From the NCBI RefSeq assembly GCF_000739635.1, contig NZ_BATQ01000154.1:1-44352 (forward strand): 44,352 nucleotides of DNA. The letters are read 5' to 3'. The notes under the pieces were generated by a model. It saw only the letters and a list, made by a program, of their open reading frames with translations. It did no database searches and was not told the origin of the DNA. Source of the stretch: Verrucomicrobium sp. BvORR034 (GTDB taxonomy: Bacteria > Verrucomicrobiota > Verrucomicrobiia > Verrucomicrobiales > Verrucomicrobiaceae). Below, one piece after another: positions 21,804 through 41,009 of this stretch. Numbering within the stretch: position 1 is the first letter of the stretch; each line of letters starts with the position of its first letter. A program made the position numbers and the translations under genes.

Positions 21804-22796
21804 ATGTCTGAAACAACCGACGCGGCCTTTGCCGCACAATGGGAACGCGCCAAAGACGCCGCTGCACGGGTGCGCCGTGAACTTGCCCGTGTCATCGTGG
21901 GGCAGGACGAGATCCAGGAGCAGATGCTGGTCTCCCTGCTCTGCCGTGGGCACTGTCTGATCGTGGGCGTGCCTGGCCTGGCCAAGACGCTGCTGGTCAG
22001 CACGCTGGCGCAGGCACTGGGGCTGAAGTTTCATCGAATCCAGTTCACGCCAGATCTCATGCCCACCGACATCGTGGGCAGTGAGGTGCTGCAGAGCGAT
22101 GCGGGCGGGGTGCGCAAATTCGAGTTCACCCCTGGTCCCGTGTTTGCCAATCTGCTCCTGGCAGATGAGATCAACCGCACCCCTCCCAAGACGCAGGCCG
22201 CGCTGCTGGAGGCCATGCAGGAGAAACAGGTCACAGTGGCCGGGGTGACCCGTCGGCTGGAGGAACCGTTCCTGGTGTTCGCCACGCAGAACCCAGTGGA
22301 GCATGAGGGCACCTATCCGCTGCCGGAGGCGCAACTCGACCGCTTCTTCTTCAATCTCAAGATCGGCTACCCCACTCTGGAGCAGGAGGCAGATGTGGTG
22401 CGCCGCACCACAGGCCGCAACCAGGATGTCGCCGAGAAGGTGCTGGATGCCGCCGGCGTGCTGGACCTGCAAAAGGTGGCGGTGGAAGTGCCTCTGCCCG
22501 ACTCCGTACTGCAAGCCATCCTGAAACTCACGCACAGCACCCGCCCTGAATCCCCTCTGGCCGATGAATACGTGAAACGCTACGTCGAATGGGGCGCCGG
22601 CCCGCGTGCCTCACAGAACCTCGCCCGCGCCGCCCGCGCCCTGGCCCTGCTGCGTGGCCAGGCCACCGCCTCCATCGAGGAAGTTCGCGAGGTTGCCCTG
22701 CCCGTGCTGCGGCATCGCATCATCCCGAACTATCAGGCCACGGGAGATGGGGTGAGTACGGAGGACATTGTGAAGAACCTGTTGGCGAAGATTTGA
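21804..22796 (+). CDS. moxR: MoxR-family AAA+ ATPase
   Basis: 330 residues, the normal length for MoxR. These cytoplasmic AAA+ proteins act as chaperones that activate or insert cofactors into partners, usually with VWA-domain proteins encoded next to them. The Walker A motif is GVPGLAKT at residues 55-62, the Walker B motif LLLADEINR at about 117-125, sensor 1 FATQNP at 159-164, and the arginine-finger region LDRFFF at 179-184. The C-terminal helical lid contains GPRASQNLARAARALALL. It is the first gene of a seven-gene operon and is preceded by the full palindromic spacer element. The start is supported by family length. Confidence 0.96.
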   Translation: MSETTDAAFAAQWERAKDAAARVRRELARVIVGQDEIQEQMLVSLLCRGHCLIVGVPGLAKTLLVSTLAQALGLKFHRIQFTPDLMPTDIVGSEVLQSDAGGVRKFEFTPGPVFANLLLADEINRTPPKTQAALLEAMQEKQVTVAGVTRRLEEPFLVFATQNPVEHEGTYPLPEAQLDRFFFNLKIGYPTLEQEADVVRRTTGRNQDVAEKVLDAAGVLDLQKVAVEVPLPDSVLQAILKLTHSTRPESPLADEYVKRYVEWGAGPRASQNLARAARALALLRGQATASIEEVREVALPVLRHRIIPNYQATGDGVSTEDIVKNLLAKI

Positions 22797-23033: not shown

Positions 23034-23921
23034 TTGAAACATTCCTCCTCATCCAAATACCTGAGTGCCGAAGACGCCCGTGCTTTGCGCGCGATGGCCT
23101 TTGCGCCGCGCATGCTGGTGGAGGGGCATCATTCCGGGAAGCACCGCTCGCGCTGGCGGGGGGCTTCGATGGAGTTTCATGAGTTTCGCCCCTACACTCC
23201 GGGCGATGCGCCGCATCTGGTGGACTGGCGGGTGTTTGCGCGCACGGACCGGTTTTACCTGAAGACCTTTGAGCAGGAGACGCGGCTGGAGTGCCATCTC
23301 TTTGTGGACAGCAGCGCGTCCATGGGTTTTCCGGAGGAGCCGGGGGCGATGACGAAGCTGGACTGGGCCTCGCACCTGGCGGCGTGCCTGGCTTATCTAG
23401 TCACCCTGCGGCAGGATCGCGTGTCGCTCACGCTGTTTGATGCCACGATCCGTCAGCACCTGCCCCCCGGTGCCACCCGCGGCCACCTGCAACAGATCCT
23501 GCATGCGCTGGAGCAGAATGCCCCGGGGCAGAAGACCTCACTCTCTGCCGCACTGGAGCGGGCGCTGCCCCTGCTCAAGCACAAGGCCACGCTGGTGGTG
23601 GTGAGTGATTTCCTCGATGACCCGGCGGCTGTCTTCCGCGCCCTGGGGGCGTATTTGCACCGCGGCTTCCGCGTCTTCCTCTTTCAGGTGCTCACGCCGC
23701 AGGAACTTCTGCTGCCGGACACCGCCTACCGCCGTTACGTGGACATGGAGACTGCCACCGCCCTTCCCGTGCATCCCTCGGCGGTTCGTGCCGCCTACCA
23801 GCGCGAGCTGGAGGAGCACCACCGCCGCCTGTCCCAGCTCAGCGCCCGCCGGGGTGTGGAGTTTGTACAAGCCCGCACTGACCAGCCCTGGCTGGACCAC
23901 CTGAGGAGGCTCACACGATGA
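23034..23921 (+). CDS. DUF58 domain protein
   Basis: 295 residues from a TTG start; no ATG is well placed and the family normally begins just before the SAEDARAL-type helix seen here at 11-18, so TTG is accepted. DUF58 proteins are cytoplasmic VWA-like partners of MoxR ATPases. The signature RPYTPGDAPHLVDWRVFART is at residues 52-71, followed by FYLKTFEQE. The VWA-like core starts at VDSSASM (Asp91-Ser95 area) with the DxSxS metal-site pattern, and a second conserved strand LVVVSDFLDD lies near 187-196. Its TGA overlaps the ATG of the next gene by four bases, a sign of translational coupling. Confidence 0.94.
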   Translation: MKHSSSSKYLSAEDARALRAMAFAPRMLVEGHHSGKHRSRWRGASMEFHEFRPYTPGDAPHLVDWRVFARTDRFYLKTFEQETRLECHLFVDSSASMGFPEEPGAMTKLDWASHLAACLAYLVTLRQDRVSLTLFDATIRQHLPPGATRGHLQQILHALEQNAPGQKTSLSAALERALPLLKHKATLVVVSDFLDDPAAVFRALGAYLHRGFRVFLFQVLTPQELLLPDTAYRRYVDMETATALPVHPSAVRAAYQRELEEHHRRLSQLSARRGVEFVQARTDQPWLDHLRRLTR

Positions 23922-26005
23922 ATTTTAGCATCGGCTGGTTGCAACCCGGGCTGCTCTGGCTCGCCGCCTTTGCGGCGGCACCGGTCATCGTCCACCTCGT
24001 CTCCCGCATCCGCCCGCCGGAGCGGCGCTTCCCCACGGTGGAGTTCCTCCGCCGGGCCATGAGCCGCACCTTCCGCTGGCGGCGTCCGCAGGACTGGCTG
24101 CTGCTGGCGCTGCGCACCCTGGCCGTGGCCGCCCTCGCACTGTGCTTTCCTCTACCCGTGCTTGTGGGAGGTCGGAACCTGGCCCAGAGCAGCGAGGGCA
24201 AGCACCTCATGCTGGTGGTGGACCGCTCCGCCTCCATGGCCGCCAGCGGCGACGGGCAGTCCCGCTTTGCCCTGGCCGTGGCCCGCGCGGTGGAGATCCT
24301 CCGCTCCGCCGGTCGCGTTGAGTCCTTGAACCTCGTGTGGCTGGATGCACAGCCGGACGCGGTCTTCCCCGATATGGGCCGCAGCCGGGAGCGGCTGGAG
24401 GAGGTGCTGCGAGCCGCCAATGTCTCGGGTCAACGCGGCGATGTGCCCGGGGCCCTGCGTCTGGCGCTGGAGCGGCTGGAGAAGCTGCCCGGGGCCAAGG
24501 AGATGTATGTGCTCTCTGACCTTCAGGCGACCACCTGGCGGGAGACCCTGCCCACTGCACCGAAGGACGTGCAGGTCTTCAAGGTGAAGCTCGGCACCGA
24601 TGCGCCCAACCTGGCCCTCAGCGGCCTGGAGACCCAGCCGGTGGAACCGCTGCCGGGCGAGAACGTGCAGGCTCTGGCGCGGGTGAAGAACTTTTCCCCC
24701 GAGGCCCGGATTGCCACCGTGGCGTTCTCTCTGGGGGATGCCCGCTCCACCCGTCAGGTGGAGGTGCAGCCCTGGGGTGAGGCCCAGGTGGGCCTGAACC
24801 TCCCCATCACGGAGGTGGGCAGTTTTGTCGTCCGCGCCTCCTTGCAGGGTTCGGAGGATCGCTTCTCCATGGATGACCAGCGTGCCATTGTGCGCCGTGC
24901 GAGAGAGGGGCTCAAGGTGGGCGTCCTGCCCACAGCCTTGGCCTCGGAGGAACGCGAGGTCTGGCAGCGCGCCTTGGGAGCCCTGCCGTGGGCCAATGTC
25001 CAGCAGGGAGCCGTGGCAGACCTGGGCAGCACGTGTGAAATCCTTGTGGCGGGCGACTCGGGAGAGGAAACAACCAAAGCCGTGCAGGAGGTCCTGCGTC
25101 GCGGCGGCACCGTGTTGTACCGGCCCCTGGCCGCTCCCTGGCAGCCCGGTCCGGTTGGCAGGGGTCAACCCGCCCTGACAGCCTCTCTTGAGAAGACCCC
25201 GACGGACGCCCCGTGGCATCTGCGCATTGCCAATGAGAAGGCGGAGGTCTTCCAGCTCTTCAGCACCGGGGAATTCGGCGATCCCGCCCGCGGTCTCTTT
25301 CATCAACGCGCCCGCCTCGCTGGAGGGGCGGATGATCTCAAGGGCTGGGACCTGACCATGGCCTACAGTGACGGCATGCCTGCGCTGGCCCGTAAAAAGG
25401 TGGACCAGGGGGCCGTCTGGTGGTGGAATCTTCCCATGGCCCCTGGCGCATCCACCTGGGCGGGCGAGTCCGCTTTCCTCCCCTTTCTGGGGGAGGTGAT
25501 CCTCCAGAGCCGTCCCGTCACTTCCCTCCCGCCTGGCACAGAGGTGCAACCTGGCCAGTCCGCCGCGTGGTCCCCCGCCCGCCTGCTGGAAGGCGGCACG
25601 GTGAAACTAATGGACCAGGCCGATGCTGTAGTACCGGTGCAGGAGGATCTGCAAACGGGCGGCCAGCGCTACTTCACCGTCCGCCCGCTCGAGCCCGGCC
25701 TCTACCGCTGGCTCATTGTGCAGGAGAACCAGGGCGGCACCGGCCATGTGGTGGCCCATACGGCCGTGAACGTGCCGGAGGAAGAGATGGACCTGCGTAC
25801 CCTGGCACCGGAGGCGGTGCCCTTCGGCGAGACTCTCGTCACCGGCAACGCCGCCAGCCTCAGCTTCGCCCAGCTCCGCGATGGCGTGCCTCTCTGGCCC
25901 TGGCTTCTGGTCACAGCGACGGTCGCGTTTCTCCTGGAGTCCCTGCTGCTCGCTTGGTGGCAAAAAACTCCAACTGACAAACTTCAAACTTCAACCGCTG
26001 CCTGA
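23918..26005 (+). CDS. BatA-type membrane protein with VWA domain
   Basis: 695 residues. Order: the BatA N-terminal domain (WLQPGLLWLAAFAAAPVIVH, residues 7-26, then RRFPTVEFLR at 36-45), a second membrane segment at about 60-83, a VWA domain beginning LMLVVDRSASM at 97-107 with the DxSxS metal site, and VLSDLQATTW near 203. A long periplasmic Ig-like/unknown region follows, with a final membrane helix (about 664-682) and a basic end. It should sit in the inner membrane with its bulk in the periplasm, and partner MoxR/DUF58. The last residues (KTPTDKLQTSTAA) are encoded by an ACTCCAACTGACAAACTTC-type spacer repeat, so the tail may be repeat-derived. Confidence 0.93.
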   Translation: MNFSIGWLQPGLLWLAAFAAAPVIVHLVSRIRPPERRFPTVEFLRRAMSRTFRWRRPQDWLLLALRTLAVAALALCFPLPVLVGGRNLAQSSEGKHLMLVVDRSASMAASGDGQSRFALAVARAVEILRSAGRVESLNLVWLDAQPDAVFPDMGRSRERLEEVLRAANVSGQRGDVPGALRLALERLEKLPGAKEMYVLSDLQATTWRETLPTAPKDVQVFKVKLGTDAPNLALSGLETQPVEPLPGENVQALARVKNFSPEARIATVAFSLGDARSTRQVEVQPWGEAQVGLNLPITEVGSFVVRASLQGSEDRFSMDDQRAIVRRAREGLKVGVLPTALASEEREVWQRALGALPWANVQQGAVADLGSTCEILVAGDSGEETTKAVQEVLRRGGTVLYRPLAAPWQPGPVGRGQPALTASLEKTPTDAPWHLRIANEKAEVFQLFSTGEFGDPARGLFHQRARLAGGADDLKGWDLTMAYSDGMPALARKKVDQGAVWWWNLPMAPGASTWAGESAFLPFLGEVILQSRPVTSLPPGTEVQPGQSAAWSPARLLEGGTVKLMDQADAVVPVQEDLQTGGQRYFTVRPLEPGLYRWLIVQENQGGTGHVVAHTAVNVPEEEMDLRTLAPEAVPFGETLVTGNAASLSFAQLRDGVPLWPWLLVTATVAFLLESLLLAWWQKTPTDKLQTSTAA

Positions 26006-26069
26006 CCCCTGCCCACCCCGCGCAGTCCCACTGAATTACCGAATCACTGAATCACTGATCCACCCCGAA

Positions 26070-28307
26070 ATGACCTTCCTCCCGACACTCCCTCTTCCTG
26101 TGCTGCTCGTAGGCGGCTTGCTGCTGCTGGCGGCTGCGGCCTGGCTGGCATGGAGGGGGGCAGGCACTTGCAGTCCGCGGGTGAGACTGGGGCTGACCGT
26201 CCTGCGGGTGCTGGGGCTGCTGGTGCTTCTGTTGGTGGCGGCCAATCCGGGCCGATGGCTTACCGAAGGCGAGCAAGAGACGCCGGGGTATGCTCTGCTG
26301 CTGGATCGCAGCGCGAGCATGGCGGTGGCGGATGGCCAGCCAGAGCAGAACAACGGCAAGACCCGCTGGGAGGTTGCATCCGGGGCGGCGCAAGAGTGGA
26401 TCAAGGCCTCCAAACACCCGGAGAGGGTGGAGCTGCACCCCTTTGCGGTCGATCTGGAGCCCGCGGTTGACTCCAAAACCCTGGGCGGCCCCAATGCCAT
26501 CAAACCCGATGGCGCTGGCAGCGAGATCGCCCGATCCCTGGCCCGCCTGCTGGAACGCGCCGCTTCTGAAAATCAGCGCTGGGAGGGCGTGGTGCTGCTC
26601 TCTGACGGACGCGAAACCGCCGCTGTGGACACCGCCTACCAGGACGCCGTGGGCCGGGCCCGGGCCCTGGGCATCAAGGTACACACGCTGGCGGTGGGCG
26701 GCCCTGTCTTCCGGAAGGATCTGGCCCTGCAGGTCGTGCGTCGCCAGATCGTGGCCTATCCGGGACAGGCGGCCTCTGTGCAGGTCAATGTCTCGAACCG
26801 CGGCTTCGGCGCAGTGAAGCCGGTCGTGCGCGTGCTGGACGCCGCGGGTGCCGAGGTGGCCCGCGCCACCGCCACGCTCAAGGCCAATGCCACGGCCGCC
26901 CTCACCCTGGCCCTGCCCGAAGCAGCGACTGAAGGCGAGTACGCAGTGAAGATGGACCTGTGGGAGGGCGATGAGGTTCCCGCCAACAACACCGACCGCT
27001 GCCGCCTGCGCCGTCTTACCAGCCGCTCCCGCGTCTTCCTGGTGGAGGGCGCGCCTTATTGGGACACGAAGTTCCTCGCGCAGCTCCTGCGTGGCCAGGG
27101 CCTCATGGAGGTCGAGGCCGTGTACCGCCTGCGCCCGGATCGATTCTACCGCGTGGTCAGCTCCGATGACCGGAAGCTGGAGGAGACGAGCAAGATCTTC
27201 CCCGCCAACCAGGCCGAGCTGGGGCAGTATGATCTGGTGGTCTTTGGCAAGAGCGCGGAGTGCTTCCTCACCCCGCAGCGGGTGGAGATGCTGCGTGCCT
27301 TTGTGCGGGACCAGGGCGGGGCGGTGCTCTTCTCCCGCGGCAAGCCATGGGCGGGCGACTACCAGGAACTCTCCTTCCTCGAACCCGGACGCTGGGGTGA
27401 GGAGGCCGGGGCGGAGTATGGCTTCCTGCCCACCCTGGAGGGGGAGGAGGTGGGCCTCTTCGGCGAGCGTCTGCCCCAGCCCAAGGACGAGCTCTGGCAG
27501 AAGCTGCCGCCGCTCAATGACGTGCGCTCCCTTAGCGAGCTGAAGCCCTTCACCCGGGTGCTGGCCATGGGCGAGCGCCGCGGGGGTGGGAACGGAGTGC
27601 CTCTGCTCCTGGCCCGCCGCTATGGACGCGGCATGGCCGCCACCCTCAATGGCGACGGCCTCTGGCGCTGGTCCTTCCAGCCCGGCAAACCGGATGCGCC
27701 GGAGCGGCAGAAGGAGTTCTGGCTCCAGCTCCTGCAGTGGGCCGCCACCTACTCGGAGTTCCTCCCGGGCGAGGATTATTCCCTGAAACTCAGCACCTCC
27801 TCCGTTGCCGCTGGTGCCACCGTGCGCGCCCGCATCGGCCAGCGCGGCGCGGCAGGCGGCACCCCGCCTCTGCTGGAATTGGTGGCAGGCAGCGAGGTAA
27901 AGCACCGCGTGCAGGCGACCAATCTGGGCGGCGATGAGACTGGCGGTGTCCAGTGGGGCGCGCTCATTGCCATGCGGGATCCAGGAGCTTACACCGTCCG
28001 CATCCAGGTGCCTGAGGGAGCCTCCGCGCCCAGCGCCCCCCTCACGGTGCTGGCCCCGCCCCAGGAATCGGACGAACTCAGTGCTGATCCCGCCTACCTT
28101 CAGAAGCTCTCGTCGGAGACCGGCGGTCAGGCCCTGCCCCTGACGCAGTGGCGCACGGCCCTGCAATCTCTGGAGCCCGATCACGTGCCGCTGCAGCTCG
28201 ATGACGCCCGCTGGGATCCGCTCTGGAGCCGCTGGTGGATCCTTGCCATCGCCGTTCTCCTCCTCGGCACCGAGTGGGGCCTGCGCCGCCGGCTCGGCCT
28301 TTCGTGA
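26070..28307 (+). CDS. Second membrane VWA protein with amidotransferase-like fold region
   Basis: 745 residues from the ATG at 26070; the open frame upstream overlaps the end of the previous gene and gives no sensible N-terminus. Two hydrophobic segments at about 8-29 and 40-59 are followed by a VWA domain starting YALLLDRSASM (74-84, metal site DxSxS) with VVLLSDGRET near 174. After an Ig-like stretch (VQVNVSNRGFGAVKPVVRVL), the part from about 320 to 600 resembles the glutamine-amidotransferase-like domain seen in such proteins (RVFLVEGAPYWDTKFL, LVVFGKSAE, GGAVLFSRGKPW, YGRGMAATLNGDGLWRW). A C-terminal membrane helix (about 718-736) ends in RRRLGLS. The pair of VWA proteins presumably form a complex with MoxR. 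Confidence 0.9.
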   Translation: MTFLPTLPLPVLLVGGLLLLAAAAWLAWRGAGTCSPRVRLGLTVLRVLGLLVLLLVAANPGRWLTEGEQETPGYALLLDRSASMAVADGQPEQNNGKTRWEVASGAAQEWIKASKHPERVELHPFAVDLEPAVDSKTLGGPNAIKPDGAGSEIARSLARLLERAASENQRWEGVVLLSDGRETAAVDTAYQDAVGRARALGIKVHTLAVGGPVFRKDLALQVVRRQIVAYPGQAASVQVNVSNRGFGAVKPVVRVLDAAGAEVARATATLKANATAALTLALPEAATEGEYAVKMDLWEGDEVPANNTDRCRLRRLTSRSRVFLVEGAPYWDTKFLAQLLRGQGLMEVEAVYRLRPDRFYRVVSSDDRKLEETSKIFPANQAELGQYDLVVFGKSAECFLTPQRVEMLRAFVRDQGGAVLFSRGKPWAGDYQELSFLEPGRWGEEAGAEYGFLPTLEGEEVGLFGERLPQPKDELWQKLPPLNDVRSLSELKPFTRVLAMGERRGGGNGVPLLLARRYGRGMAATLNGDGLWRWSFQPGKPDAPERQKEFWLQLLQWAATYSEFLPGEDYSLKLSTSSVAAGATVRARIGQRGAAGGTPPLLELVAGSEVKHRVQATNLGGDETGGVQWGALIAMRDPGAYTVRIQVPEGASAPSAPLTVLAPPQESDELSADPAYLQKLSSETGGQALPLTQWRTALQSLEPDHVPLQLDDARWDPLWSRWWILAIAVLLLGTEWGLRRRLGLS

Positions 28308-28349: not shown

Positions 28350-31244
28350 ATGGACGTCCCACAGGAACTTCGCGAGACACTGGCCCACTTCCGGGACCAG
28401 GTGCGCGCCCGGCTGCGACTCCGCGGCACCCTGGCACTGATCGCTGCCTGGGTCGGGCTGGCCATCCTCCTGGGCCTGCTGGATGCCTGGCTCAGCTTTG
28501 AAACCCAGGGCCGCACCGTTCTGGCCGCACTGCTGGGAGGCGCGGCTGTGGTGGGACTGCTGACAGTCTTCTGGCGCAGCCGACGGTTCACACTTCAGGA
28601 TGCCGCTCAAAGGCTCGATGCCGTCACCGGTGATCCGCGTGGTCTCGCCAGCATTGGCTCCGACCTCTCTTCGCTCACGAAAGTCGCGGAAAAACGCGAA
28701 AGCTCGTCCCCCACTGCTCCGCCTGCTCTGCCCACTCTGGAGGGCTTTCTCACCCGCCGGGCCCTGGCGGAGGCCCTCTCCCGCCTGCGAGCCCTGCCGG
28801 AGGAGACGTTGACCTCCCGCATCCGGCTGCGGCCTGTCTGGGCACTGCTGGGCGCGGCTCTGGCGGTGGTCATCGCGCTGGCCATCTGGCAGCCCCGGGC
28901 GACCTCGCTCATCGCCCAGCGCCTGCTTCAGCCCGGTCGTGAGCTGCCGCCCTACAGCCGCTATGTGTTTGACCTCGATCCCTCCCAGCCCCGCGTCATT
29001 TATGGGAAGGCCCTCTCGCTGGCCGCGGAGATCACCGGCGCCCCGGTGGAGGGCGTGGAGGTGCAACTGCTCACCCGCAGTGCAAGAAGCTCCCAGGTGG
29101 ACCGCCTGCCAGTCTACCGCGAGGCAGGGCAACGATTTGCCCAGAAGCTGGAAGGGGTGACCACCCCGCTGGAGGTGGCCTTTGCCATCGGCCGTGCCCG
29201 CTCCGCCTGGGTGCCGGTGGAGATCCTCTGGCAGCCGCAGCTGGAGCGCTCTGAGGTGACCATCACCCCGCCGCGCTATGCCGGTCGCAAGACAGTGCCC
29301 GGCACCCTCACGGGGGAAATCCAGGGACTGCGGGGCTCAGAGGTGCACCTGCGCCTGAGCAGCAACCGCCCGCTCTCCGGCGGCCTCCTGGAAGCCAGAG
29401 TTGAAGGAAACAACGAAGTGGTGGAGAAGGTGGACGGCACCCCGCTGCGGGGAGATCCCCGCACGGTCGAGTTCCGCTGGACCATCAGCCGCGACTGCCG
29501 CTGGACGGTGGATCTGCGGGACATCCGCGGCACCCGTATGGCGGAGCCGGTCCGCTTCGTCCAGCGTCTGGTGCCAGATGAGAAGCCCGCCATCGATCTC
29601 CTCGCCCCCGGCCCCTTTGCCATGGCCACCCCCTCCAGCGCGGTCAAGCTGCAATGGCAGGTGTCGGATGACATCGGCCTAGACCGCGCCTCCTGGGTGC
29701 GTACGGCGGATGGCTTCCGCGATCGCGCCACCGCCCTGCCCGGGGTGGGTGGGGAGCGTTCCGTGGAGGTGCAGCGCGAAATCCAGCTCACGAACCTGGG
29801 CGTGAGCCCCGGGCAGACTCTGGAGTTCCTCCTGGAGGCCCGCGACCGCAACCCCAGCCTCATGGGTGTAAGCTCCTCGACCCCGGTGAAGGTGAAGATC
29901 ATCTCCGAGGAGGAATACGCCGAGCAGATCCGCGTGCGCACCAGCATCGAGGAGTTCGCCGCCCGCTATCAGGTCCTCCGCGATACGCTGGATGCGGCAG
30001 CCAAGGCGCTGGATGAACTGGCCGAGGCCGCCCGCTCTGGCGATCGCACCAAGATCGAGGCCGCCCGCCAACGTGCTCTCAACAAGCAGAAGCAGGCTGC
30101 GGAGTGGTTTGGCGACTTTGCCGATGACTTCCCGGCCTTCGCCACGGACAAGGAGCTGTCCGAACTCTCCGGTGATCTGCAGGAGGAACTGGAGAAGAAT
30201 GCCAAGGATCTGGAAGGCCAGTCTGGCTGGGACAACCCCGCCAAGGCCGAGGAACTGGCCAAACAGATGCGGGAGCGCCTCCAGGCCGGCTCTGACAAGC
30301 TCGATGAGCAAAAGGAAATGGCAGACGAGTTTGCCAAGATCGCCTCCGTCGCGGAGATGGCTGCCGAGCTCCAGGCCATCCACCAGGAGCAGCGGGAGGT
30401 TTCAGAAACCCTGGCTCGCATCGCGGAGGAGATCGCCGTCGGCATGACTAACAACCGCCACAAGGTGGGTGAGCTGCGCCAGCGGCAGCTGCGCAATGAG
30501 GAACGGCTCCGCGAGGTCGAGGAAAAACTGCCCGAGCGCCTCGCCCAGCTCCCGGAATCCGCCGCCAAGCTCAAGGAAGGCGCGGAGAAAGTGCTGGAGG
30601 GGCTCAAGAACTTCGACGTGGCCAAGCAGATGGGCGACGCCGTGACCAAGATCGGCAAAGGGGACCTGCTCGGTGCCAGCAACGACTCCCTGCTCGCCCG
30701 CGGCAATCTGGACCAGATCCTGAGCCAGCCGGACAATCCTTTCTGTGACATGTGCCAGGGCAACATGCCCGGCGGCATGGGCAGCGGCGGTGCCGGTCAG
30801 CAGGAAGCGCTGGCTCAGATGATGGGGGCTCTGAAACGCCGTGCGCAGGGCGAAGGCCAGGGCCAGGGGCCCAACTCCAAAGGCGGCATCGGCGAAGGCG
30901 GCCAGGGTTTCGGTGCCAAGGGCGGCAGCGGCTCCAGCATGGCTGGCACCCAGCTTCCCGTGCCCTTGATCGGTCCGCCCAGGCTCCAGCTCAACGGTCC
31001 CAAATCACTCGGCAGCACCGGGGACAAATCTGGCGACGGGCGAGCCAGCGGCAGTGCCACGAGCCAGCCAGAAACCGCGTCCAACACCCTCCCGGGCGCC
31101 ACCGTGCCCAACGCCAAAGGCTCCGGCCCCAGCCTGGACGAAGTGCCCATGAAGTACCGGGAGGCGGTGAAGAATTACTTTTCGCGAGAAGGTGGTAGCG
31201 AGGCGGGTGGAAGTCAGGGGGAAGGCGGGAGCGGAAAGAAGTAA
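28350..31244 (+). CDS. Large coiled-coil membrane protein (DUF4175-like)
   Basis: 964 residues. Membrane segments lie at about 27-48, 56-75 and 162-181. A periplasmic region of beta-rich repeats covers about 190-520 (for example ERSEVTITPPRYAGRKTVPG). A long charged coiled coil covers about 523-770 (LDAAAKALDELAEAARSGD, KDLEGQSGWDNPAKAEELAK). The end, about 800-964, is Gly/Gln/Ser-rich and probably disordered. Gene order and layout match the DUF4175-type proteins of MoxR/VWA operons. A CxxC pair, Cys799-Asp-Met-Cys802, stands at the border of the coiled coil and the Gly-rich tail; apart from one more Cys near residue 386 I see no others, so the pair is conspicuous. It may be a substrate of the thioredoxin/CcdA protein two genes on. 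Confidence 0.82.
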   Translation: MDVPQELRETLAHFRDQVRARLRLRGTLALIAAWVGLAILLGLLDAWLSFETQGRTVLAALLGGAAVVGLLTVFWRSRRFTLQDAAQRLDAVTGDPRGLASIGSDLSSLTKVAEKRESSSPTAPPALPTLEGFLTRRALAEALSRLRALPEETLTSRIRLRPVWALLGAALAVVIALAIWQPRATSLIAQRLLQPGRELPPYSRYVFDLDPSQPRVIYGKALSLAAEITGAPVEGVEVQLLTRSARSSQVDRLPVYREAGQRFAQKLEGVTTPLEVAFAIGRARSAWVPVEILWQPQLERSEVTITPPRYAGRKTVPGTLTGEIQGLRGSEVHLRLSSNRPLSGGLLEARVEGNNEVVEKVDGTPLRGDPRTVEFRWTISRDCRWTVDLRDIRGTRMAEPVRFVQRLVPDEKPAIDLLAPGPFAMATPSSAVKLQWQVSDDIGLDRASWVRTADGFRDRATALPGVGGERSVEVQREIQLTNLGVSPGQTLEFLLEARDRNPSLMGVSSSTPVKVKIISEEEYAEQIRVRTSIEEFAARYQVLRDTLDAAAKALDELAEAARSGDRTKIEAARQRALNKQKQAAEWFGDFADDFPAFATDKELSELSGDLQEELEKNAKDLEGQSGWDNPAKAEELAKQMRERLQAGSDKLDEQKEMADEFAKIASVAEMAAELQAIHQEQREVSETLARIAEEIAVGMTNNRHKVGELRQRQLRNEERLREVEEKLPERLAQLPESAAKLKEGAEKVLEGLKNFDVAKQMGDAVTKIGKGDLLGASNDSLLARGNLDQILSQPDNPFCDMCQGNMPGGMGSGGAGQQEALAQMMGALKRRAQGEGQGQGPNSKGGIGEGGQGFGAKGGSGSSMAGTQLPVPLIGPPRLQLNGPKSLGSTGDKSGDGRASGSATSQPETASNTLPGATVPNAKGSGPSLDEVPMKYREAVKNYFSREGGSEAGGSQGEGGSGKK

Positions 31245-31436: not shown

Positions 31437-32084
31437 ATGAAAACTCTCCTATCCATCTTAACCCTCACGCTGACACTGGCCGTCTCCAGTTCCGCCAAAG
31501 AAGGCATCGTGCAGTGCGGCAATCTTATCTATGGCGGAGGGAAGACCTCCACCTGCTTCAGCGATGAATTCCTGAGCTCCGTGCAGAAGGAGACGAGCAT
31601 CGCCACGGACCGGCGTTTCCGCCCGGTGAAACTGGCGGGCGACGAGCTCTTTGAGTTCCCCTTTGTGGTCATGACGGGTGAGGGTGACTTCAGCCTGACG
31701 CCAAAGGAGCGGGAGAACCTGAAACGCTTCCTCACCAATGGCGGCTTTCTGCTGGCCTCAGCCGGCTGCTCGAATGCGGAGTGGAACGCCTCCTTCCGCC
31801 GGGAGATGAAGACGATTTTCGGCAAAGAGGTCTTCAACAAGCTGGAGATGAAGCACCCGGTCTTCAACACGGTGTTTCCTGTGAACGATCTGGGGCTGAA
31901 GAAGAGCGACGGCCACTCCGCACTGGAGGGCTTTGAGCACGAAGGCCGTCTCGTGGTGGTGTACTCGCCCGATGGTCTGAACAACACGGCCAATGCCCCC
32001 GGCTGTTGCTGCTGTGGCGGCAACGAGATCGCGAACAGCCTTCAGCTTAATGTGAACATCCTTGCCTATGCCCTGCTGCACTGA
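31437..32084 (+). CDS. Secreted DUF4159 protein with four adjacent cysteines
   Basis: 215 residues from the ATG at 31437, chosen because it gives a signal peptide (hydrophobic residues 4-17, cleavage near SSA-KEG) and the upstream frame is repeat DNA. The DUF4159 pattern is visible: CGNLIYGGGKTSTC near the start, FEFPFVVMTGEGDFSLTP (72-89), ENLKRFLTNGGFLLASAGC (93-111), and FRREMKTIFG (120-129). DUF4159 proteins belong to MoxR/VWA operons and have a flavodoxin/amidotransferase-like fold. This one is unusually cysteine-rich: Cys27, Cys40, Cys111 and the run Cys190-193 in NAPGCCCCGGNEIANS. It overlaps the next gene by 17 bases, implying coupling to the thioredoxin/CcdA fusion. Confidence 0.85.
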   Translation: MKTLLSILTLTLTLAVSSSAKEGIVQCGNLIYGGGKTSTCFSDEFLSSVQKETSIATDRRFRPVKLAGDELFEFPFVVMTGEGDFSLTPKERENLKRFLTNGGFLLASAGCSNAEWNASFRREMKTIFGKEVFNKLEMKHPVFNTVFPVNDLGLKKSDGHSALEGFEHEGRLVVVYSPDGLNNTANAPGCCCCGGNEIANSLQLNVNILAYALLH

Positions 32085-35000
32085 CAGCATCCGCCCCGCG
32101 TGGCCTCCTCTCCTGCTTGCCGCCGCTTTGATGCTGTGGCCGGGCACCGGCGTGACTGCGCCCGTGAAGCCGCCCCCTGCAGGATCCGGCGGCACGGCCG
32201 CCACTGCCACTCCCCAGCCCACGGAGGATCTGGACTGGGCCGCCATGGCCCGCGGTCTGGGCAAGATGGAGACCCGCACGGCCACGCTGGATGAGCTGCG
32301 CACCGTACAGCCCTTTCCCGCTGCTGCCTGGGTCGCCCTCCTGGACCACGCTGACCTCGCCGTAAGGCTGGGTGCCCTGGAGGTTTTGGAAGATCTGGCC
32401 GGCAATGACCAGGGCTATGATGCCTGGCAGACCGACCCCGCTGAGCGGGCCGAGTCGCTCCAGCGTTGGCGCACCTGGGCCTCCACCGGCGCAGGCAAGG
32501 GCACGAATGTGGCTGCCGCGGCCAACCTCCAACCGGAGCAGCTTCAAGACTATCTCCAGGACATCCTGGGTGGCGATGCCAGCAAGGTGGAGCGCGCCAT
32601 GAGCCGCCTGCACCCCTATGCCCCACAGGCCATCGGAGCCATTGAAAATTTCCTCGCCTCCCAGAAGTCCCTCCAGGAGGGAGCCAAAGGCCGCTTGAAG
32701 GAGGCGCAATACCGCCTGCTGCTGGAAAGCAGCGCCGTGCCCGATGCGCCGCGCCTGGCCCGCATGCTGATCTTTGGCAATCGGGACGAACGGGTGGAAG
32801 GCATGGAGGGCATCTCCGGTGCTGGCAAGCGCGTGCTGCCGATCGTACGGGAGATGCTGGGCGACCGCGAAGCCCTGGTGCGGGAGCGCGCCGTGGACCT
32901 GCTTTTCCAGACGAATCACAAGCCCGCCCTGGCCATCATCGAGACGCATCTGAAGACCGAGAAGGATGCAAACGTGATCCATGCCGCCATCCGCGGCTTT
33001 GGCAAGGTGGAGTCCGCCATCTCCACACGACTGCTCGTGGGTTTCCTGAACCACGAGAACGAAGACCTCGTCTCGGCAGCATTGCTGTCCCTCAGCCTCC
33101 AGAGCGGGGCTGCCCGCAATGCCAAGCCTCAAATCGTGGCCTGCCTCAAGCACCCCAGCTGGCGGGTGCGGGCTGCAGCGTTGCAATGCGCGACGAAGGC
33201 CAGCCTCGGCAATCTGGGGGACGATGCCCTGAACTTGCTCAAGGACAGCGACAGCTTCGTGCGTCAGGCCGCCGTCATCGCCATCGCTGCGAGTGCCCGC
33301 GAGAGCGCCAGTGATTCCTTTGGCTCCTCCGGCTTGCTGGGCATGGTGCGCAAGGCCACGGGCGGGGAAAAGAGAGATGCAACCACCGCTCTGAGCGAGG
33401 CTTTTGCCGCAGATGACGAGCTCAAGGGCGTGGTGCTGAAGGCCTTTGCGACCATGCAGAGGCCGGTGCCGGACAAGATCCTGGAACAGTTCCCCAAGCT
33501 CTCTCCGGAACTCCTCGCCTTCGGCCTGACGAGTGTGAACCCTCGTGGGGACAAGGAGATCGAACTCCTGTTGCGCTACGGCCGGGATCCCAACCCGGAC
33601 ATCGCCTGCGCCGCCCTGCGTGTACTGGCGAAACACTGCAATGACACTCCCAGCGCTCAGCCGATCCTCATTGAAGTGCTGAGCGGCACCGACCGCGCCC
33701 GTCAAGAGGCGGTGCTGGACCAGCTCAACACCCCATACAAGGCGCTCACCGCGCCACGCCAGGTGCTGGAAAAGAGGCTTCAGGAAATCACGGCAGACGT
33801 CACCCTGCCAGTCGCACCCGCGCCGGCCCCGACTCCGGGGAACTCCCAGTCCTCTTCGGTCCCCGCGGCCGACCCGATGAGCCGGTTGTACGCCGCCTTT
33901 GCGAGCAGTGACACCTCGAACTCGTCCCCCGGCACTCCGGCTACCCCCTCGGGTCCCGCTCCTGCTACAGGTGCAGAGGCAAATGCAGCCGCAAGCCCGG
34001 ACAAGCTGGTGGATCGTCTGCACGCTGCATTCCTTGGTTCCGGCCCTGACACGACGGCACCTGCTGCGACACAGCCTCCGCCTCCGACGCCTGGTGCAGA
34101 GCCCCCTGCCACCACCGGGAAGCCGGCCACCGGGCCCGTCACGCCTGCTGCCGCCACCGGGCCGCCCAAGAGCACCATCGAGGCGATGGACCGCCTGGCC
34201 GCATCCGCGGACAAGCCGTCTGGAGAAACGCCCGACCTGCCGCTGATGGCAGCGTACAAGCTGGTGGAAGGCGGCAGCTCAAAAGGGGCCGCCCACTTCC
34301 TCCGCTGGTGGCCGCACCTCAACGTCCAGCACCGGGCCGGTCTGGCAGACTTGCTCAGTCGCAATCCCCAGCCGGGTTCGCTCGATATCTGGCAGCGTCT
34401 CCTGCGGGATCCCTCCCGGGAGATCCGGCGCAAGGCCGTTGAGAGCGCCTTTTACGAGGAGAAGGTCCCCTCCCCCATCAAGCTCGTTTTCCTCGAACTC
34501 ATGCGGCGCGATGCCGTGCTGGAGGCCGCGGATGTCTACCAGTCCCGCCTGGAGAGCATGGTCTCAGACCGCGAGTCCCGCGGCATGGTCTCCGAGCAGG
34601 CCCGGGTGTTGATCAATGACTCCCGCGTGGACCGCCAGGTTCTGGCCGCCATCATGCTGCGCGAGCGCACCAAGGCCGCGGACACGGAGCTCCTGGAGCG
34701 CACCTCCGCCTCCCCCCACTTCTGGGTGCGCCGCGCCGCTGTGCGAAGCCTCGGCCAAGGGGGCAAACGCACGCTGGAGGCCCACCTTCCCGTCTTGACC
34801 AAGGACCCCTCCGCATGGGTGCGGGAGGCCACCGCCTCCGCCCTTGGTGACGGCACCTGGCCCTGGGAGCACCACTTTGATGACAACACCGCAGTGGAAG
34901 ATGAGGGGAACAGTTATTTCACCGACTCCTCTTCCAGCCGTCGTCTCTCAGAGCCCGCCCAGGCGGCCCTGCGGGAGCTGGCCAAGGACAGGGAGGAGCG

Positions 35001-36462
35001 TGTGCGGCTCGCAGCGCTCTCGGGCCTGCTGGTGAGCCGTGAGGAGATTCATCTGCCCACCTACCTGGACCTCTTTGACCATGCGGCCAACCGCAAGGAG
35101 CTCGCGAAGATGCTCACCTCCTTCGTGGAGAGGAACTACACCAAGCTGGGCAAGGGTCTCGCCCCGTTGCTGGAGCGCATGGACTGGAAGCATGTGAACG
35201 AGACGCAGGTGGAAGCCATCCAGAAGCACTTCGGCACCCTGGGCAAGGACACGCTTACCGAGTTCACCGCGTACGTAGCCGAAGCTGGAAAGGCGGGCAC
35301 ACTCCTGGCGAATGCCGGCCAACCCCAGTTCACCCCGGAAAGCAGTGACGCCACGGACGAATCCCCCTCCGTGGATTTTGAGAAGGCCCCGGTGACCGTG
35401 CTGTTCTTCCACAACCCCGGTTGTCACGAGTGCGAGAAGGTGCGCAAGGAGCTCGCCTCCCTGGGCAGGCAGTACACCGGCCTGAAGGTTCAAGAACACA
35501 ACATCCGCGAGACGGAGGCGGTGATCCTCTATGAGGTGCTCTCCCAGCGCTTCAACGTGCCCCCGGCCGACCGCCTGAAGACGCCCGCTGTTTTCCTCCA
35601 GAACGGGGTGTTCATCACCGAGCAGATCAACCGCCCCACCCTGGCCAGTGCGATTCGCGATGTGGCGGAGACGGGTGAGACCGACGTGTGGCACCAGACC
35701 CAAACTCAGGATCTAGCCCTGGCCAAAGAAGAGGTGCAGCAGCGCGTGCACACCCTGCAGCCGGCCGTGATCTTCTTTGCCGGGCTGCTGGATGGGGTGA
35801 ACCCCTGTGCCTTTGCCACCATTATCTTCCTGCTCTCCTATCTTCAGGTGGCCAAGCGCACCTCTCGGGAGATCCTCCTGGTGGGCATGGCCTTCATCTG
35901 CGGAGTGTTCATCACCTACTTCGTGCTCGGCCTCGGCCTGGTGGAGGTGGTGAGCCGCCTCACCGCTCTGCAGACCATTGGTACTATTGTGAACTGGATC
36001 CTCGCGCTGGGCTGTCTCGTGGTGGCTGTGCTGAGCTGGCGGGATGCCCGCCTCGCGAGCCAGGGGCGTCTGCAAGACATGTCGCTCCAGCTCCCTGGGT
36101 TTTTGAAAGAACGCATCCGCGGTGTCATCCGCACCGGCACCCGCGTGAACCGATTTGTCATCGCCGCCTTCGGTGCTGGAGCGGTCATCAGCGTCCTGGA
36201 ACTGGCCTGCACCGGCCAGGTCTATCTGCCCACGATTGTCTATGCCATGAAGTCCGGAGCGTCCAACGCGACCGGATTCCTGCTCCTGTACAACCTCGCG
36301 TTCATTGTCCCGCTTGCCACCGTCTTCGGCCTGGCCTGGGGAGGTCTGCGCAGCGATGCGCTGATCCGCTTCCAACATCGCCATACGGCCAAGGTGAAGT
36401 ATGCCCTGGCGCTGTTGTTCGGCGTGTTGTTTGTGGTGCTGGCGACGAGTGGGAGACTGTAG
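32068..36462 (+). CDS. HEAT-repeat / thioredoxin / CcdA (DsbD-like) fusion protein
   Basis: 1,464 residues from the ATG at 32068; a TTG two codons upstream is an alternative. After a signal peptide, residues about 60-575 and 720-1080 are HEAT-like helical repeats (for example WVALLDHADLAVRLGALEVL; VRRAAVRSLGQGGKRTLEAH). Between them lies a Pro/Ala/Thr-rich linker with the motif RLYAAF / RLHAAF repeated. Residues about 1103-1205 form a thioredoxin-like domain with FFHNPGCHECEKV (Cys1119, Cys1122). The end, 1230-1464, is a six-helix CcdA/DsbD membrane domain with NPCAFATI (Cys1247) and ELACTGQVYLP (Cys1381), the two cysteines that shuttle electrons across the membrane in this family. I infer that it passes reducing power from cytoplasmic thioredoxin to periplasmic partners held by the HEAT scaffold. 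It is the last gene of the operon. Confidence 0.93.
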   Translation: MPCCTDSIRPAWPPLLLAAALMLWPGTGVTAPVKPPPAGSGGTAATATPQPTEDLDWAAMARGLGKMETRTATLDELRTVQPFPAAAWVALLDHADLAVRLGALEVLEDLAGNDQGYDAWQTDPAERAESLQRWRTWASTGAGKGTNVAAAANLQPEQLQDYLQDILGGDASKVERAMSRLHPYAPQAIGAIENFLASQKSLQEGAKGRLKEAQYRLLLESSAVPDAPRLARMLIFGNRDERVEGMEGISGAGKRVLPIVREMLGDREALVRERAVDLLFQTNHKPALAIIETHLKTEKDANVIHAAIRGFGKVESAISTRLLVGFLNHENEDLVSAALLSLSLQSGAARNAKPQIVACLKHPSWRVRAAALQCATKASLGNLGDDALNLLKDSDSFVRQAAVIAIAASARESASDSFGSSGLLGMVRKATGGEKRDATTALSEAFAADDELKGVVLKAFATMQRPVPDKILEQFPKLSPELLAFGLTSVNPRGDKEIELLLRYGRDPNPDIACAALRVLAKHCNDTPSAQPILIEVLSGTDRARQEAVLDQLNTPYKALTAPRQVLEKRLQEITADVTLPVAPAPAPTPGNSQSSSVPAADPMSRLYAAFASSDTSNSSPGTPATPSGPAPATGAEANAAASPDKLVDRLHAAFLGSGPDTTAPAATQPPPPTPGAEPPATTGKPATGPVTPAAATGPPKSTIEAMDRLAASADKPSGETPDLPLMAAYKLVEGGSSKGAAHFLRWWPHLNVQHRAGLADLLSRNPQPGSLDIWQRLLRDPSREIRRKAVESAFYEEKVPSPIKLVFLELMRRDAVLEAADVYQSRLESMVSDRESRGMVSEQARVLINDSRVDRQVLAAIMLRERTKAADTELLERTSASPHFWVRRAAVRSLGQGGKRTLEAHLPVLTKDPSAWVREATASALGDGTWPWEHHFDDNTAVEDEGNSYFTDSSSSRRLSEPAQAALRELAKDREERVRLAALSGLLVSREEIHLPTYLDLFDHAANRKELAKMLTSFVERNYTKLGKGLAPLLERMDWKHVNETQVEAIQKHFGTLGKDTLTEFTAYVAEAGKAGTLLANAGQPQFTPESSDATDESPSVDFEKAPVTVLFFHNPGCHECEKVRKELASLGRQYTGLKVQEHNIRETEAVILYEVLSQRFNVPPADRLKTPAVFLQNGVFITEQINRPTLASAIRDVAETGETDVWHQTQTQDLALAKEEVQQRVHTLQPAVIFFAGLLDGVNPCAFATIIFLLSYLQVAKRTSREILLVGMAFICGVFITYFVLGLGLVEVVSRLTALQTIGTIVNWILALGCLVVAVLSWRDARLASQGRLQDMSLQLPGFLKERIRGVIRTGTRVNRFVIAAFGAGAVISVLELACTGQVYLPTIVYAMKSGASNATGFLLLYNLAFIVPLATVFGLAWGGLRSDALIRFQHRHTAKVKYALALLFGVLFVVLATSGRL

Positions 36463-39342: not shown

Positions 39343-40893
39343 CTAACCCATGAGCGGGCTGCGCAGGATCAGCAGGATGAGGATGCATACGACCGTGGGC
39401 AGCAGGGCGGCCAGGGCAAGTTTCCCCGGCTGGACATTTCCCGCAAAGTGATGGCCCAAAAGACTCTGCCCGGCCGGGTTGGGCGCGTTGGCAATCACCG
39501 TCATGCCCCCGGCGGCCACCGCTCCGGCCACCACGGCGTATTTGGCGAAGTCCCCCAATCCAGGAGCCTGCGCGGCCAGGTAGGTGATGGCGGCATTGTC
39601 GTTAAACATCGTGAGCACGGCCGCGCCCAGCAGCAGGCCCCACTCCGGCAGATTGGCGCTGGTGAGGAGCGGCTCAATCCACCAGGACTGGCACCGCCCA
39701 TGCACGATGAGCGCCCCCAGGAAGAAGCCCACCAGCAGCGGGGACCGCAGGGAGACGGGGCTCTGGTGGTGACGTGTGGCTTCCACGAACCCGAGGAAGA
39801 ACAGGAATCCGCCGATGAAGAGGGCCGGGTAGTGATTGGTAAAAACCGTCCAGGCCAGGAAGAACAGGTGCACGGCCGTCACCTCCCGCGGCACGGGTTC
39901 CTCCACCCTGTCATCCACCCTGGCCCGGGCACTGGCTGAGGCGAGCGACCGCAGTTCCTTGCGGAACACGAGGAAATACGCGGCGTTGTTGATGAGGATG
40001 GCCACGACCATCTTCCAGCCAATGTTGCCGAAGACGATGGCGGTGTCCCACTTCCACGGGGCCGCCACCATGAGGATGGGCGGCGCGGCAAAGTGCGTGA
40101 GAGTGCCCCCCACGCTGATGTTTACGAAGAGCAGTCCGAGGGTGCCGTAGGCGAGCTTGCGGCTTGGTGCCAGGGAATACAGACGCTGGGAGAGCAGCAG
40201 GGCGGCCAGAGTCATCGCGGCGGGCTCGGTGATGAGGGAGCCCATGAGGGGTGCCACCGTCAGGATGGCCAGCCACCACGCTGCAGGCGTGCTCTGCCTC
40301 AGGGCCGCGACCCGGCCGATACAGGCCTCGGCGAACTTCACCACCGGACGGGAGGCGGCAATGGCCATGATCACGATCACGAAGAGCGGCTCCGTGAAAT
40401 TCACATCGTGGCCGAGGTAGTTCCGTAGATCCGCCCACCCGTGGAAGTACAGGGCCGTCCCGGCGAGGGCCACGATCCAGAGGCCGAAGACGGCCTCCAC
40501 CTCGCCAAAGAAATGCAGCGTGACCGCCCAGAAAGAGACTCTCTCCGTGTCCTCGCCGTGTTTGGCCAGATGCCGCTTTTCCAGATCATGCGCCCACTCC
40601 CGGAAAATCCCGGCCACAAAGGTGTGCATGACCGCCAGGACGAAGATGATGGTGGCGGCCACGTTGAACGGCTCCTGGGCCGCCCGCTCCTTGATCATCT
40701 GCCATGCGCCTGCACCCTCTGCATGCTCGTACAGGGACAGCGGCTTGGGGAAGTGGGAGAACTGCGGGTGCCCTTCATAGACCGGGGCCCCCTCCTCCTC
40801 CGCCCATCCGGTGCCCAGAAATGCGAAAAGGAACAGGACGATGGTGGTCCACTTCCCGAACGGACGCATCAGAGAGAGGGATGGGTTTCTCAT
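39343..40893 (-). CDS. Putative sodium/proton antiporter (NhaD-like membrane protein)
   Basis: 516 residues from the ATG at 40893 (the open frame extends 24 codons further without a better start). A signal-like first hydrophobic segment (about 15-30) and a hydrophilic stretch with YEGHPQFSHFPKPLSLYEH precede some 12 membrane helices. Motifs typical of the putative Na+/H+ antiporter group related to NhaD are seen: GSLITEPAAMTLAALLLSQ, VNISVGGTLTHFAAPPILMV, and MFNDNAAITYLAAQAPGL with the buried Asp/Asn pair. It would exchange sodium for protons across the inner membrane. It is divergent from trxB, and the upstream gene of the ribE/VTT group. Confidence 0.87.
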   Translation of the reverse strand: MRNPSLSLMRPFGKWTTIVLFLFAFLGTGWAEEEGAPVYEGHPQFSHFPKPLSLYEHAEGAGAWQMIKERAAQEPFNVAATIIFVLAVMHTFVAGIFREWAHDLEKRHLAKHGEDTERVSFWAVTLHFFGEVEAVFGLWIVALAGTALYFHGWADLRNYLGHDVNFTEPLFVIVIMAIAASRPVVKFAEACIGRVAALRQSTPAAWWLAILTVAPLMGSLITEPAAMTLAALLLSQRLYSLAPSRKLAYGTLGLLFVNISVGGTLTHFAAPPILMVAAPWKWDTAIVFGNIGWKMVVAILINNAAYFLVFRKELRSLASASARARVDDRVEEPVPREVTAVHLFFLAWTVFTNHYPALFIGGFLFFLGFVEATRHHQSPVSLRSPLLVGFFLGALIVHGRCQSWWIEPLLTSANLPEWGLLLGAAVLTMFNDNAAITYLAAQAPGLGDFAKYAVVAGAVAAGGMTVIANAPNPAGQSLLGHHFAGNVQPGKLALAALLPTVVCILILLILRSPLMG

Positions 40894-41009
40894 GGAATAA
40901 CAGGAGCGCCCTGCCCTCCCACCGTCAACCAAAGTCGGCCCGGAAGGGTGCGAAACCCGTTGCACCCCTTCACCCCTGCGCTAGGTAGAATCGTATCCTA
41001 TTGCCCACC

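Follow-up and report, generated by a model that had tools for sequence, protein, structure and literature searches.

The window analysed here is the whole 44,352-nt stretch of contig NZ_BATQ01000154.1 (positions 1–44,352, forward strand) from the 8.58-Mb draft genome of Verrucomicrobium sp. BvORR034 (assembly GCF_000739635.1). At window positions 32068–36462 (+) lies a stop-free open reading frame (ORF) whose 1,464-residue translation joins HEAT repeats to a thioredoxin-like domain and a CcdA-like membrane domain; we refer to this HEAT-thioredoxin-CcdA fusion as HTC. Its gene is the last of an operon in the order MoxR, DUF58, BatA, VWA, u964 (a 964-aa protein), DUF4159 and terminal gene, and its first 17 nt are shared with the 3' end of the DUF4159 gene. 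Elsewhere in its own genome HTC has no second match at E ≤ 0.001. Here we describe HTC, the tetra-cysteine motif of the adjacent DUF4159 protein, which contains an in-frame UGA in some relatives, and a redox role that the two proteins may share. All features lie on the plus strand unless stated; G and L numbers are our labels for genomes and loci.

HTC starts with a signal peptide or N-terminal hydrophobic segment recognised by hydropathy (residues 15–33, 32110–32166). A first HEAT block (residues ~84–590, 32317–33837), a Pro/Ala/Thr-rich linker evident from the sequence (~591–716, 33838–34215) and a second HEAT block defined by HEAT matches (~717–1075, 34216–35292) follow, all with approximate borders. 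PF13646 (HEAT_2) matches five stretches of the protein over the Pfam cut-off (E 8.8e-29, 100.1 bits vs 27.7). The thioredoxin/glutaredoxin-like domain (35380–35652) contains Cys1119-His-Glu-Cys1122 (CHEC, codons 35422–35433) and, 54 residues further on, the Pro of a [TS]PAVF motif, which we take to be the cis-Pro of the thioredoxin fold. The CxxC and this Pro are invariant in an alignment of six relatives. Thioredoxin and glutaredoxin Pfam matches stay below threshold, the best covering residues 1110–1193 (E 0.0055, 17.4 bits vs 26).

The C-terminal CcdA-like domain (35773–36459) comprises six hydrophobic segments, predicted as helices from hydropathy (residues ~1238–1262, 1269–1287, 1304–1329, 1363–1391, 1404–1427 and 1443–1461), with Cys1247 in the first (codon 35806–35808) and Cys1381 in the fourth (codon 36208–36210). 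The Pfam model for CcdA/DsbD (PF02683, DsbD_TM) does not match HTC at E ≤ 0.1, nor three stand-alone thioredoxin-CcdA relatives at E ≤ 1. NCBIfam ArsG matches HTC with E 2.6e-7 and 30 bits, far under its cut-off of 200. A profile of six relatives matches 15 ORFs of related genomes (E 6.5e-7 to 3.3e-5) with both membrane cysteines aligned; all five of these ORFs that were scanned are DsbD by Pfam, including PF02683, and hhalign gives P 6e-05 but a probability of just 65%. The ArsG match and the profile match to DsbD ORFs argue that the membrane domain is related to DsbD/CcdA. An earlier note, made from this DNA alone, had read it as one protein of HEAT-linker-HEAT-thioredoxin-CcdA layout and suggested profile searches along its length. 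The layout is borne out by the uninterrupted ORF, PF13646, the CHEC motif and the six segments; the searches placed HEAT over its cut-off and left the thioredoxin part below threshold and the membrane part without a Pfam CcdA/DsbD match. The note's term DsbD-type fits the cysteines and the profile match to DsbD ORFs, although the domain order differs and the Pfam DsbD model misses the membrane domain.

The fusion recurs well beyond this contig. The near twin Verrucomicrobium sp. BvORR106 encodes an HTC protein 89% identical by tblastn. We read 49 copies with an ACTGQ-type motif, several of them cut at the 5' side by contigs: CxxC, NPCAF and CTGQ are kept in 49/49, so the conservation of the CxxC and CcdA cysteines on which the note had relied is confirmed, and the stricter NPCAFAT pattern is found in 47, L109 and L111 having NPCAF only. 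An N-terminal CxWC is present in 10/49 copies, and the region around it resembles a second thioredoxin domain by eye; L117–L119 have an N-terminal thioredoxin-like domain with other CxxC motifs, L083, L084 and L086 have one recognisable by eye without a CxxC, and the window HTC has none. The predicted C-terminal thioredoxin domain is the constant part of the fusion, and the N-terminal thioredoxin and CcdA parts are variable.

In the family (59 genomes), 22 genomes match HTC at E ≤ 1e-3 and just six at E < 1e-100; the remaining 16, none better than E 2e-5, come from ORFs of 440–877 aa that are DsbD where scanned. At E ≤ 1e-10, HTC has matches in 26 of 189 genomes sampled from the order; 24 of these matches span nearly the full domains (two ORFs being contig-cut), and the other two are a HEAT-thioredoxin protein without CcdA (G113) and a remnant (G080). 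Of 387 genomes sampled from the phylum, 91 match at E ≤ 1e-8; the matching proteins include giant fusions of 1,344–1,613 aa, contig-cut ones and shorter thioredoxin-CcdA ORFs (mostly ~380–630 aa). Giant ORFs in G113, G334, G464 and G466 match HTC in the thioredoxin part alone and have one C-terminal hydrophobic helix by eye. Since the same fusion is found in many independent genomes across the phylum, an assembly artefact, the objection raised with the original description, is rejected.

The DUF4159 tetra-cysteine motif and its UGA form

The gene before HTC (31437–32084) encodes a 215-aa DUF4159 protein (PF13709, E 3.4e-27) with a signal peptide by eye; 31437 is the probable ATG of an ORF listed from 31269. 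The cysteine codons of its GCCCCGGNE motif occupy 32004–32015, and the last of them (32013–32015) is TGT here and TGA in 11 relatives. In the alignment of 35 operon homologues, picked by homology and not by motif, seven Cys columns stand out: three single ones (34/35, 35/35 and 35/35) and the CCCC run (35, 35, 35 and 30 of 35). GCCC followed by Cys or UGA is thus present in 35/35; the five sequences without the fourth Cys have TGA there, and their frame runs on to the same conserved end. Common Cys columns elsewhere in the operon are found in MoxR (26/29 and 27/29), DUF58 (26/29), BatA (21/31) and u964 (27/34), and the VWA and TPR-like alignments have no Cys column at ≥ 30%. The GCCCC motif is missing from all eight canonical DUF4159 paralogues listed. 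None of six canonical DUF4159 loci has an HTC or UshA-cytochrome gene, and one has a different ORF with five CxxCH motifs.

Two further arrangements were seen. The genome of the window has another MoxR/DUF58/VWA/DUF4159 cluster (G000:C51, L273), which lacks the CCCC motif and a redox terminal gene. Five small genomes of genus g12 (L099, L181, L265, L266, L268 and L269, listed with G113) keep the operon with NCCCC and no adjacent terminal gene.

Our genome surveys of DUF4159 covered Verrucomicrobiota. Among 386 genomes of the order, 11 have a TGA in DUF4159, every one at the fourth Cys codon; in the phylum sample (387 genomes, matches at E ≤ 1e-30) the TGA form occurs in G151 alone, which is already among the 11. 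Such codons could be artefactual, arising from sequencing error, a pseudogene or codon reassignment, with DUF4159-CCCC an ordinary structural disulfide protein. We regard this as very improbable, given that the same codon recurs in 11 genomes with the frame open to the same end, and given the hairpin, SelB and stop-codon data that follow.

A SECIS-like (selenocysteine insertion sequence) hairpin lies 24 nt after the UGA, with a 7-bp stem and a 3-nt loop, GUU or GUC, whose G is present in 11/11. All 11 UGA sequences form 5–6 of its six inner pairs and 52 Cys sequences form 2.6 on average, a difference that argues against an artefact, as do both-side changes in two of the hairpin pairs. The hairpin cells are paired in 93.5%, against 10–49% with the partners slid. 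Three measures lie above all 500 shuffles: the paired cells, the cells with changes on both sides and the covariation score. The number of both-side-changed pairs (reached by 266/500) and that of further pair types (reached by 500/500) do not, and these two of five covariation measures count in favour of an artefact. The hairpin is part of the minimum-energy fold in 10/11 UGA sequences, L093 folding otherwise. It meets the bacterial SECIS (bSECIS) model described in the available text of PMC13188914: a 3–9 nt loop, a 4–16 bp stem, a G in the first two loop bases and a distance of 16–37 nt from the UGA. Rfam scans of eight loci returned no family at gathering score.

The decoding machinery accompanies the codon. 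SelB is over the cut-off in 11/11 UGA genomes, which also speaks against an artefact, and in 11 of 39 other genomes that we chose (p 1.9e-5, kinship ignored). Nine candidate tRNA-Sec hits of 91–95 nt from genomes of interest were examined with ARAGORN, which confirmed the tca anticodon in all five UGA genomes checked and in four Cys-form genomes. Rfam RF01852 does not discriminate Ser from Sec tRNAs, as 108/189 genomes score over its cut-off.

By tblastn, the MoxR, DUF58, BatA, HEAT and thioredoxin-CcdA alignments of the 11 UGA loci contain no in-frame stop. The DUF4159 alignments contain 13 stops, of which the UGA codons account for 11 and the other two precede the real start. Outside DUF4159 there are four: one TAG in the poorly aligned VWA N-terminus and three TGA at the CxxC of u964. 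G563 ends the same DUF4159 gene with TGA. We reject a reassignment of UGA; the stop-free neighbours and the terminating TGA of G563 weigh against an artefact in general.

In the midpoint-rooted tree the UGA forms group with a single Cys member, G671, in a 12-tip clade (support 0.883), and this single-lineage origin is a further point on the side of an artefact. G671 (L219, L279) has a Cys codon, yet it retains the hairpin (5 of 6 inner pairs), and its selB frame looks interrupted. The kept hairpin and interrupted selB suggest that its Cys form is a reversion after loss of selenocysteine (Sec) decoding; a sequence error in selB is a possible alternative to a real interruption.

Codon, hairpin and genome content together make DUF4159-CCCC/U, with its unusual motif CCCU, a strong selenoprotein candidate that would define a new family. 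Neither PF13709 nor CCCU appears in the available main text of a 2026 selenoprotein review (PMC13188914). A second UGA occurs in u964 of L213, L214 and L215 (G563, G674 and G702), where TGA replaces the first Cys of the CxxC (UQMC, UQMC and UQAC). A hairpin with a GG-type loop lies ~21 nt after this UGA in two of the three, and the third has a different hairpin. Because the u964 CxxC is not invariant, we treat u964 only as a candidate second selenoprotein.

Operon context and alternative terminal genes

To survey the gene after DUF4159 we used 76 CCCC/CCCU loci, which came from homology searches and were kept on the motif, so that 35/35 remains the unbiased motif count. The next gene is HEAT-thioredoxin-CcdA in 46 and a UshA-like tetraheme cytochrome in 16 (L175–L180, L220–L227, L255 and L258); one locus has a HEAT gene cut by the contig end (L262). 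No locus has both an HTC and a cytochrome gene at E ≤ 1e-5. The cytochrome-type terminal protein combines a UshA-like part with a tetraheme cytochrome c554 domain: all five that were scanned match cytochrome c554, and 15/16 contain PCGC or PCNC and four CxxCH, L227 being cut off by its contig. The DUF4159 tree splits HEAT-type from cytochrome-type loci. Two unrelated, predicted electron-transfer proteins are therefore interchangeable at the terminal position of the operon. Outside the 76 loci, L281 (G471:C50) encodes a 1,069-aa protein that by eye fuses a UshA-like domain to thioredoxin-CcdA (match at 4296–5330, tblastn E 9.5e-45); in it, both kinds of electron partner appear to meet the same UshA-like domain.

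The cytochrome loci bear on another reading of the DUF4159 site, namely that Cys3-Cys/Sec is a metal or metal-sulfur centre of a periplasmic enzyme. MoxR and VWA would insert the metal like NorQ/NorD, HTC would keep the ligands reduced during assembly, and the cytochrome would be the electron partner of the finished enzyme. In favour of this reading, a run of four cysteines would suit metal binding, Sec can act as a metal ligand, and the gene that replaces HTC at the end of the operon encodes a tetraheme cytochrome with a UshA/SoxB-like domain. NorQ/NorD are required for iron insertion, according to the available text of PMC9976466. On the other hand, a DUF4159 model of low confidence yielded no metal ligand set, and Pfam and NCBIfam scans of the operon proteins named no known metalloenzyme subunit. 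We consider a metal centre unlikely, while keeping it in view.

The other genes of the operon encode a MoxR AAA+ ATPase (21804–22796; PF07726, E 5.7e-63), a DUF58 protein (23034–23921; PF01882, E 3.4e-45), a BatA-like protein with BatA N-terminal and VWA regions (23918–26005; PF07584, E 1.5e-13), a VWA/MG2-like membrane protein (25881–28307; sub-threshold VWA_2 and MG2 matches), whose start codon is uncertain and whose ORF overlaps that of BatA, and u964 (28350–31244), which matches no Pfam family over the cut-off and has a CDMC motif (codons 30744–30755). Gene order in relatives was established by tblastn with the window genes. Where at least 9.95 kb of sequence precedes the DUF4159 motif (43 loci), MoxR, DUF58, BatA, VWA and u964 are all present on the same strand in 41.

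HTC-type fusions directly follow a Cys-motif DUF4159 gene in 46 loci, which is every readable context; contigs L003, L030 and L111 are too short to show it. The earlier note's placement of the fusion as the last gene of a MoxR/VWA operon therefore holds in the window and wherever context is readable, the exception being the CcdA-less HEAT-thioredoxin gene of G113, which is separate from the operon in a genome whose u964 has an internal TAA. Among 189 genomes, HTC or HEAT-thioredoxin occurs together with a strong u964 match in 25, HTC occurs alone in one (the remnant) and u964 alone in none (Fisher p 2.6e-30, kinship ignored). Strong means E < 1e-58, the next match being at 4e-44, a threshold chosen after the gap was seen. 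Counting weaker matches, u964-like proteins occur in 65/189 genomes, several of them in cytochrome-type operons.

These associations tell against a general role, in which HTC would oxidise or isomerise disulfides, or serve as a general periplasmic reductase or chaperone whose HEAT repeats bind unfolded clients, its place in the operon reflecting co-regulation only. The shorter thioredoxin-CcdA ORFs in many phylum genomes favour such a role. Around all five of these whose contexts were fetched the operon is absent, so the module has uses without DUF4159. The fusion itself, by contrast, always directly follows Cys-motif DUF4159 where the context can be read, and its co-occurrence with u964 is near perfect; we judge a general role improbable. 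Among the shorter ORFs nearest to the fusion are the stand-alone thioredoxin-CcdA proteins of L112–L115 (402–444 aa), whose fetched stretch contains no operon genes.

Upstream of MoxR lies a ~1,000-aa protein (18660–21650) with homologues at the same place in many relatives. Its label TPR-like derives from a weak match (E 0.037) of a paralogue at 15400–18537. Both of these and a third ~1,000-aa protein (6335–9487) match the same homologues in relatives, and none of the three has a Pfam match over the cut-off. Downstream, a putative Na+/H+ antiporter is encoded at 39343–40965 (−) (PF07399, E 3.4e-158). PADLOC matched HTC to HEAT-ARM_XIII (E 3.8e-12) and gave a weak LmuB match for u964 (E 1.3e-5), with nothing at E ≤ 0.001 for MoxR, DUF58, BatA, VWA, DUF4159 or the 996-aa protein; a known defence system was rejected, PADLOC being limited to these two matches. 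The MoxR-vWA conflict systems of PMC7159879 are described with other third components, and the terms DUF58, BatA and thioredoxin are absent from its main text as available.

A proposed electron relay

We favour, as rather likely, a model in which the MoxR/BatA/VWA operon has in HTC a dedicated relay that passes thiol electrons across the membrane and reduces the DUF4159 site. The CcdA-like domain would take up cytosolic electrons through Cys1247 and Cys1381 and hand them to the attached periplasmic thioredoxin domain with its CHEC motif. The HEAT arrays would tether this domain to the periplasmic complex that the operon encodes, where it would reduce the tetra-Cys site (Cys3-Sec in some relatives) of the secreted DUF4159 protein. 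DUF4159-CCCC/U would be the redox-active subunit of a periplasmic complex assembled by MoxR and VWA. We infer the direction of electron flow, the DUF4159 client, the HEAT docking scaffold and the MoxR/VWA assembly or activation motor from gene content and motifs.

Several observations point to this model, among them the CxxC and CcdA cysteines kept in 49/49 copies, the gene order of 41 of 43 loci, the joint occurrence with u964, and the Cys/UGA motif of DUF4159 with its hairpin and SelB. In selenoproteins, Cys-for-Sec exchange marks a chemically active residue. That a multiheme cytochrome can take the place of the thiol relay argues that the terminal gene encodes an electron partner. The small secreted DUF4159 protein next to HTC is the best candidate for its client. 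The earlier note had envisaged reductant delivery to large periplasmic clients; delivery appears to be the most economical reading, whereas large clients found no support and the best candidate is small.

Other results weigh against the relay. Both its thioredoxin and membrane parts are below Pfam cut-offs. Structure prediction, which the note had recommended, gave low predicted local distance difference test (pLDDT) scores on shallow alignments, 43.9 for the thioredoxin-CcdA part and 39.4 for DUF4159, scores at which neither a thioredoxin fold nor a DUF4159-thioredoxin interface could be modelled. Neither redox gene is adjacent in 8/76 loci (L181, L259, L260, L261, L265, L266, L268 and L269), so DUF4159 need not be paired with one in cis. 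In a further 5/76 (L117, L118, L119, L256 and L257) the HEAT protein has a CxxC and no CcdA match, so such forms either do without a membrane relay or receive it in trans. L104 (G391) lacks MoxR, DUF58 and BatA upstream and L178 (G170) lacks these and VWA, both retaining u964, DUF4159 and the terminal gene. Replacement by a cytochrome could equally mean that electrons leave the DUF4159 site. Leptospira bat mutants are without an oxidative-stress phenotype, as reported in the accessible part of PMC3557215.

More tentatively still, the operon may encode an undescribed periplasmic redox machine of Verrucomicrobiota, assembled by MoxR and VWA, with the Cys3-Cys/Sec DUF4159 protein as catalytic or carrier subunit, u964 as a second selenoprotein in three genomes, a HEAT-scaffolded thioredoxin-CcdA relay or a UshA-like tetraheme cytochrome as interchangeable electron partners, and perhaps Sox-like sulfur or metal chemistry. 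If true, it would explain what Bat-type operons do. The parts of HTC are of known kinds; their combination, and the term DUF4159, were not found in the literature searched, which excluded most subscription papers, and an earlier description of the combination is possible. The analysis adds a probable new selenoprotein family and shows two unrelated, predicted electron-transfer proteins at one operon position.

Comparison with known systems

In the Sox system, SoxV is CcdA-like and SoxW is a thioredoxin, and they serve SoxYZ. This is the nearest functional analogy to the relay proposed for HTC, and we use it as an analogy only. Cytochrome-type terminal genes likewise encode a UshA/SoxB-like domain and hemes. 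Unlike in Sox, family scans of the operon proteins named no SoxY, SoxZ, SoxA or SoxX homologue, and the carrier would be DUF4159 with CCCC/U instead of SoxYZ. That a CcdA-like protein reduces a periplasmic thioredoxin is stated in the title of Appia-Ayme and Berks (2002), as cited in the available text of PMC10451225.

Like DsbD/CcdA, HTC has six hydrophobic segments, conserved cysteines in the first and fourth, which align with cysteines of the relatives' DsbD ORFs, and an attached thioredoxin-like domain. The order of parts differs: DsbD runs DsbD_N, membrane part, C-terminal thioredoxin, whereas in HTC the thioredoxin is N-terminal to the membrane part. HTC also differs in that DsbD_N is not matched, ~1,000 residues of HEAT are added and the signature is CTGQ[VI]Y.

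Bat operons share with the HTC operon the MoxR, DUF58 and BatA/VWA genes in order; the HTC operon differs in having u964, a DUF4159 gene with the Cys motif and a terminal gene dedicated to redox function. For BatC (TPR), there is only the weak match (E 0.037) in the protein at 15400–18537; for BatD, no model turned up in the Pfam scan of the operon proteins, and no BatD-specific search was made. That Bat proteins send reducing power out to the periplasm is a proposal of Tang et al. (1999), cited here from PMC3557215. According to the available text of PMC3557215, that role was not found in Leptospira, and the idea was left without a demonstrated function. Bat-type MoxR/BatA/VWA operons are present in many bacteria. 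Because the present operon has a predicted thiol relay beside a Cys/Sec protein, the export idea becomes directly testable, with one donor, one candidate client and one motif.

The selenoprotein side of the operon also has known counterparts. Two cytochrome-type terminal proteins match the UshA-like (seleno)protein family NF041198 (E 7e-73 and 1.1e-68) and share its PCGC motif; they differ in staying below its curated cut-off (246 and 232 bits vs 275) and in their fusion to a tetraheme cytochrome c554 domain. The terminal UshA-like proteins are probably a Cys form related to this known selenoprotein family. DUF4159 itself resembles the known prokaryotic selenoproteins of Table 1 in the available text of PMC13188914 in its predicted Cys/Sec exchange at a Cys motif and its bacterial SECIS.

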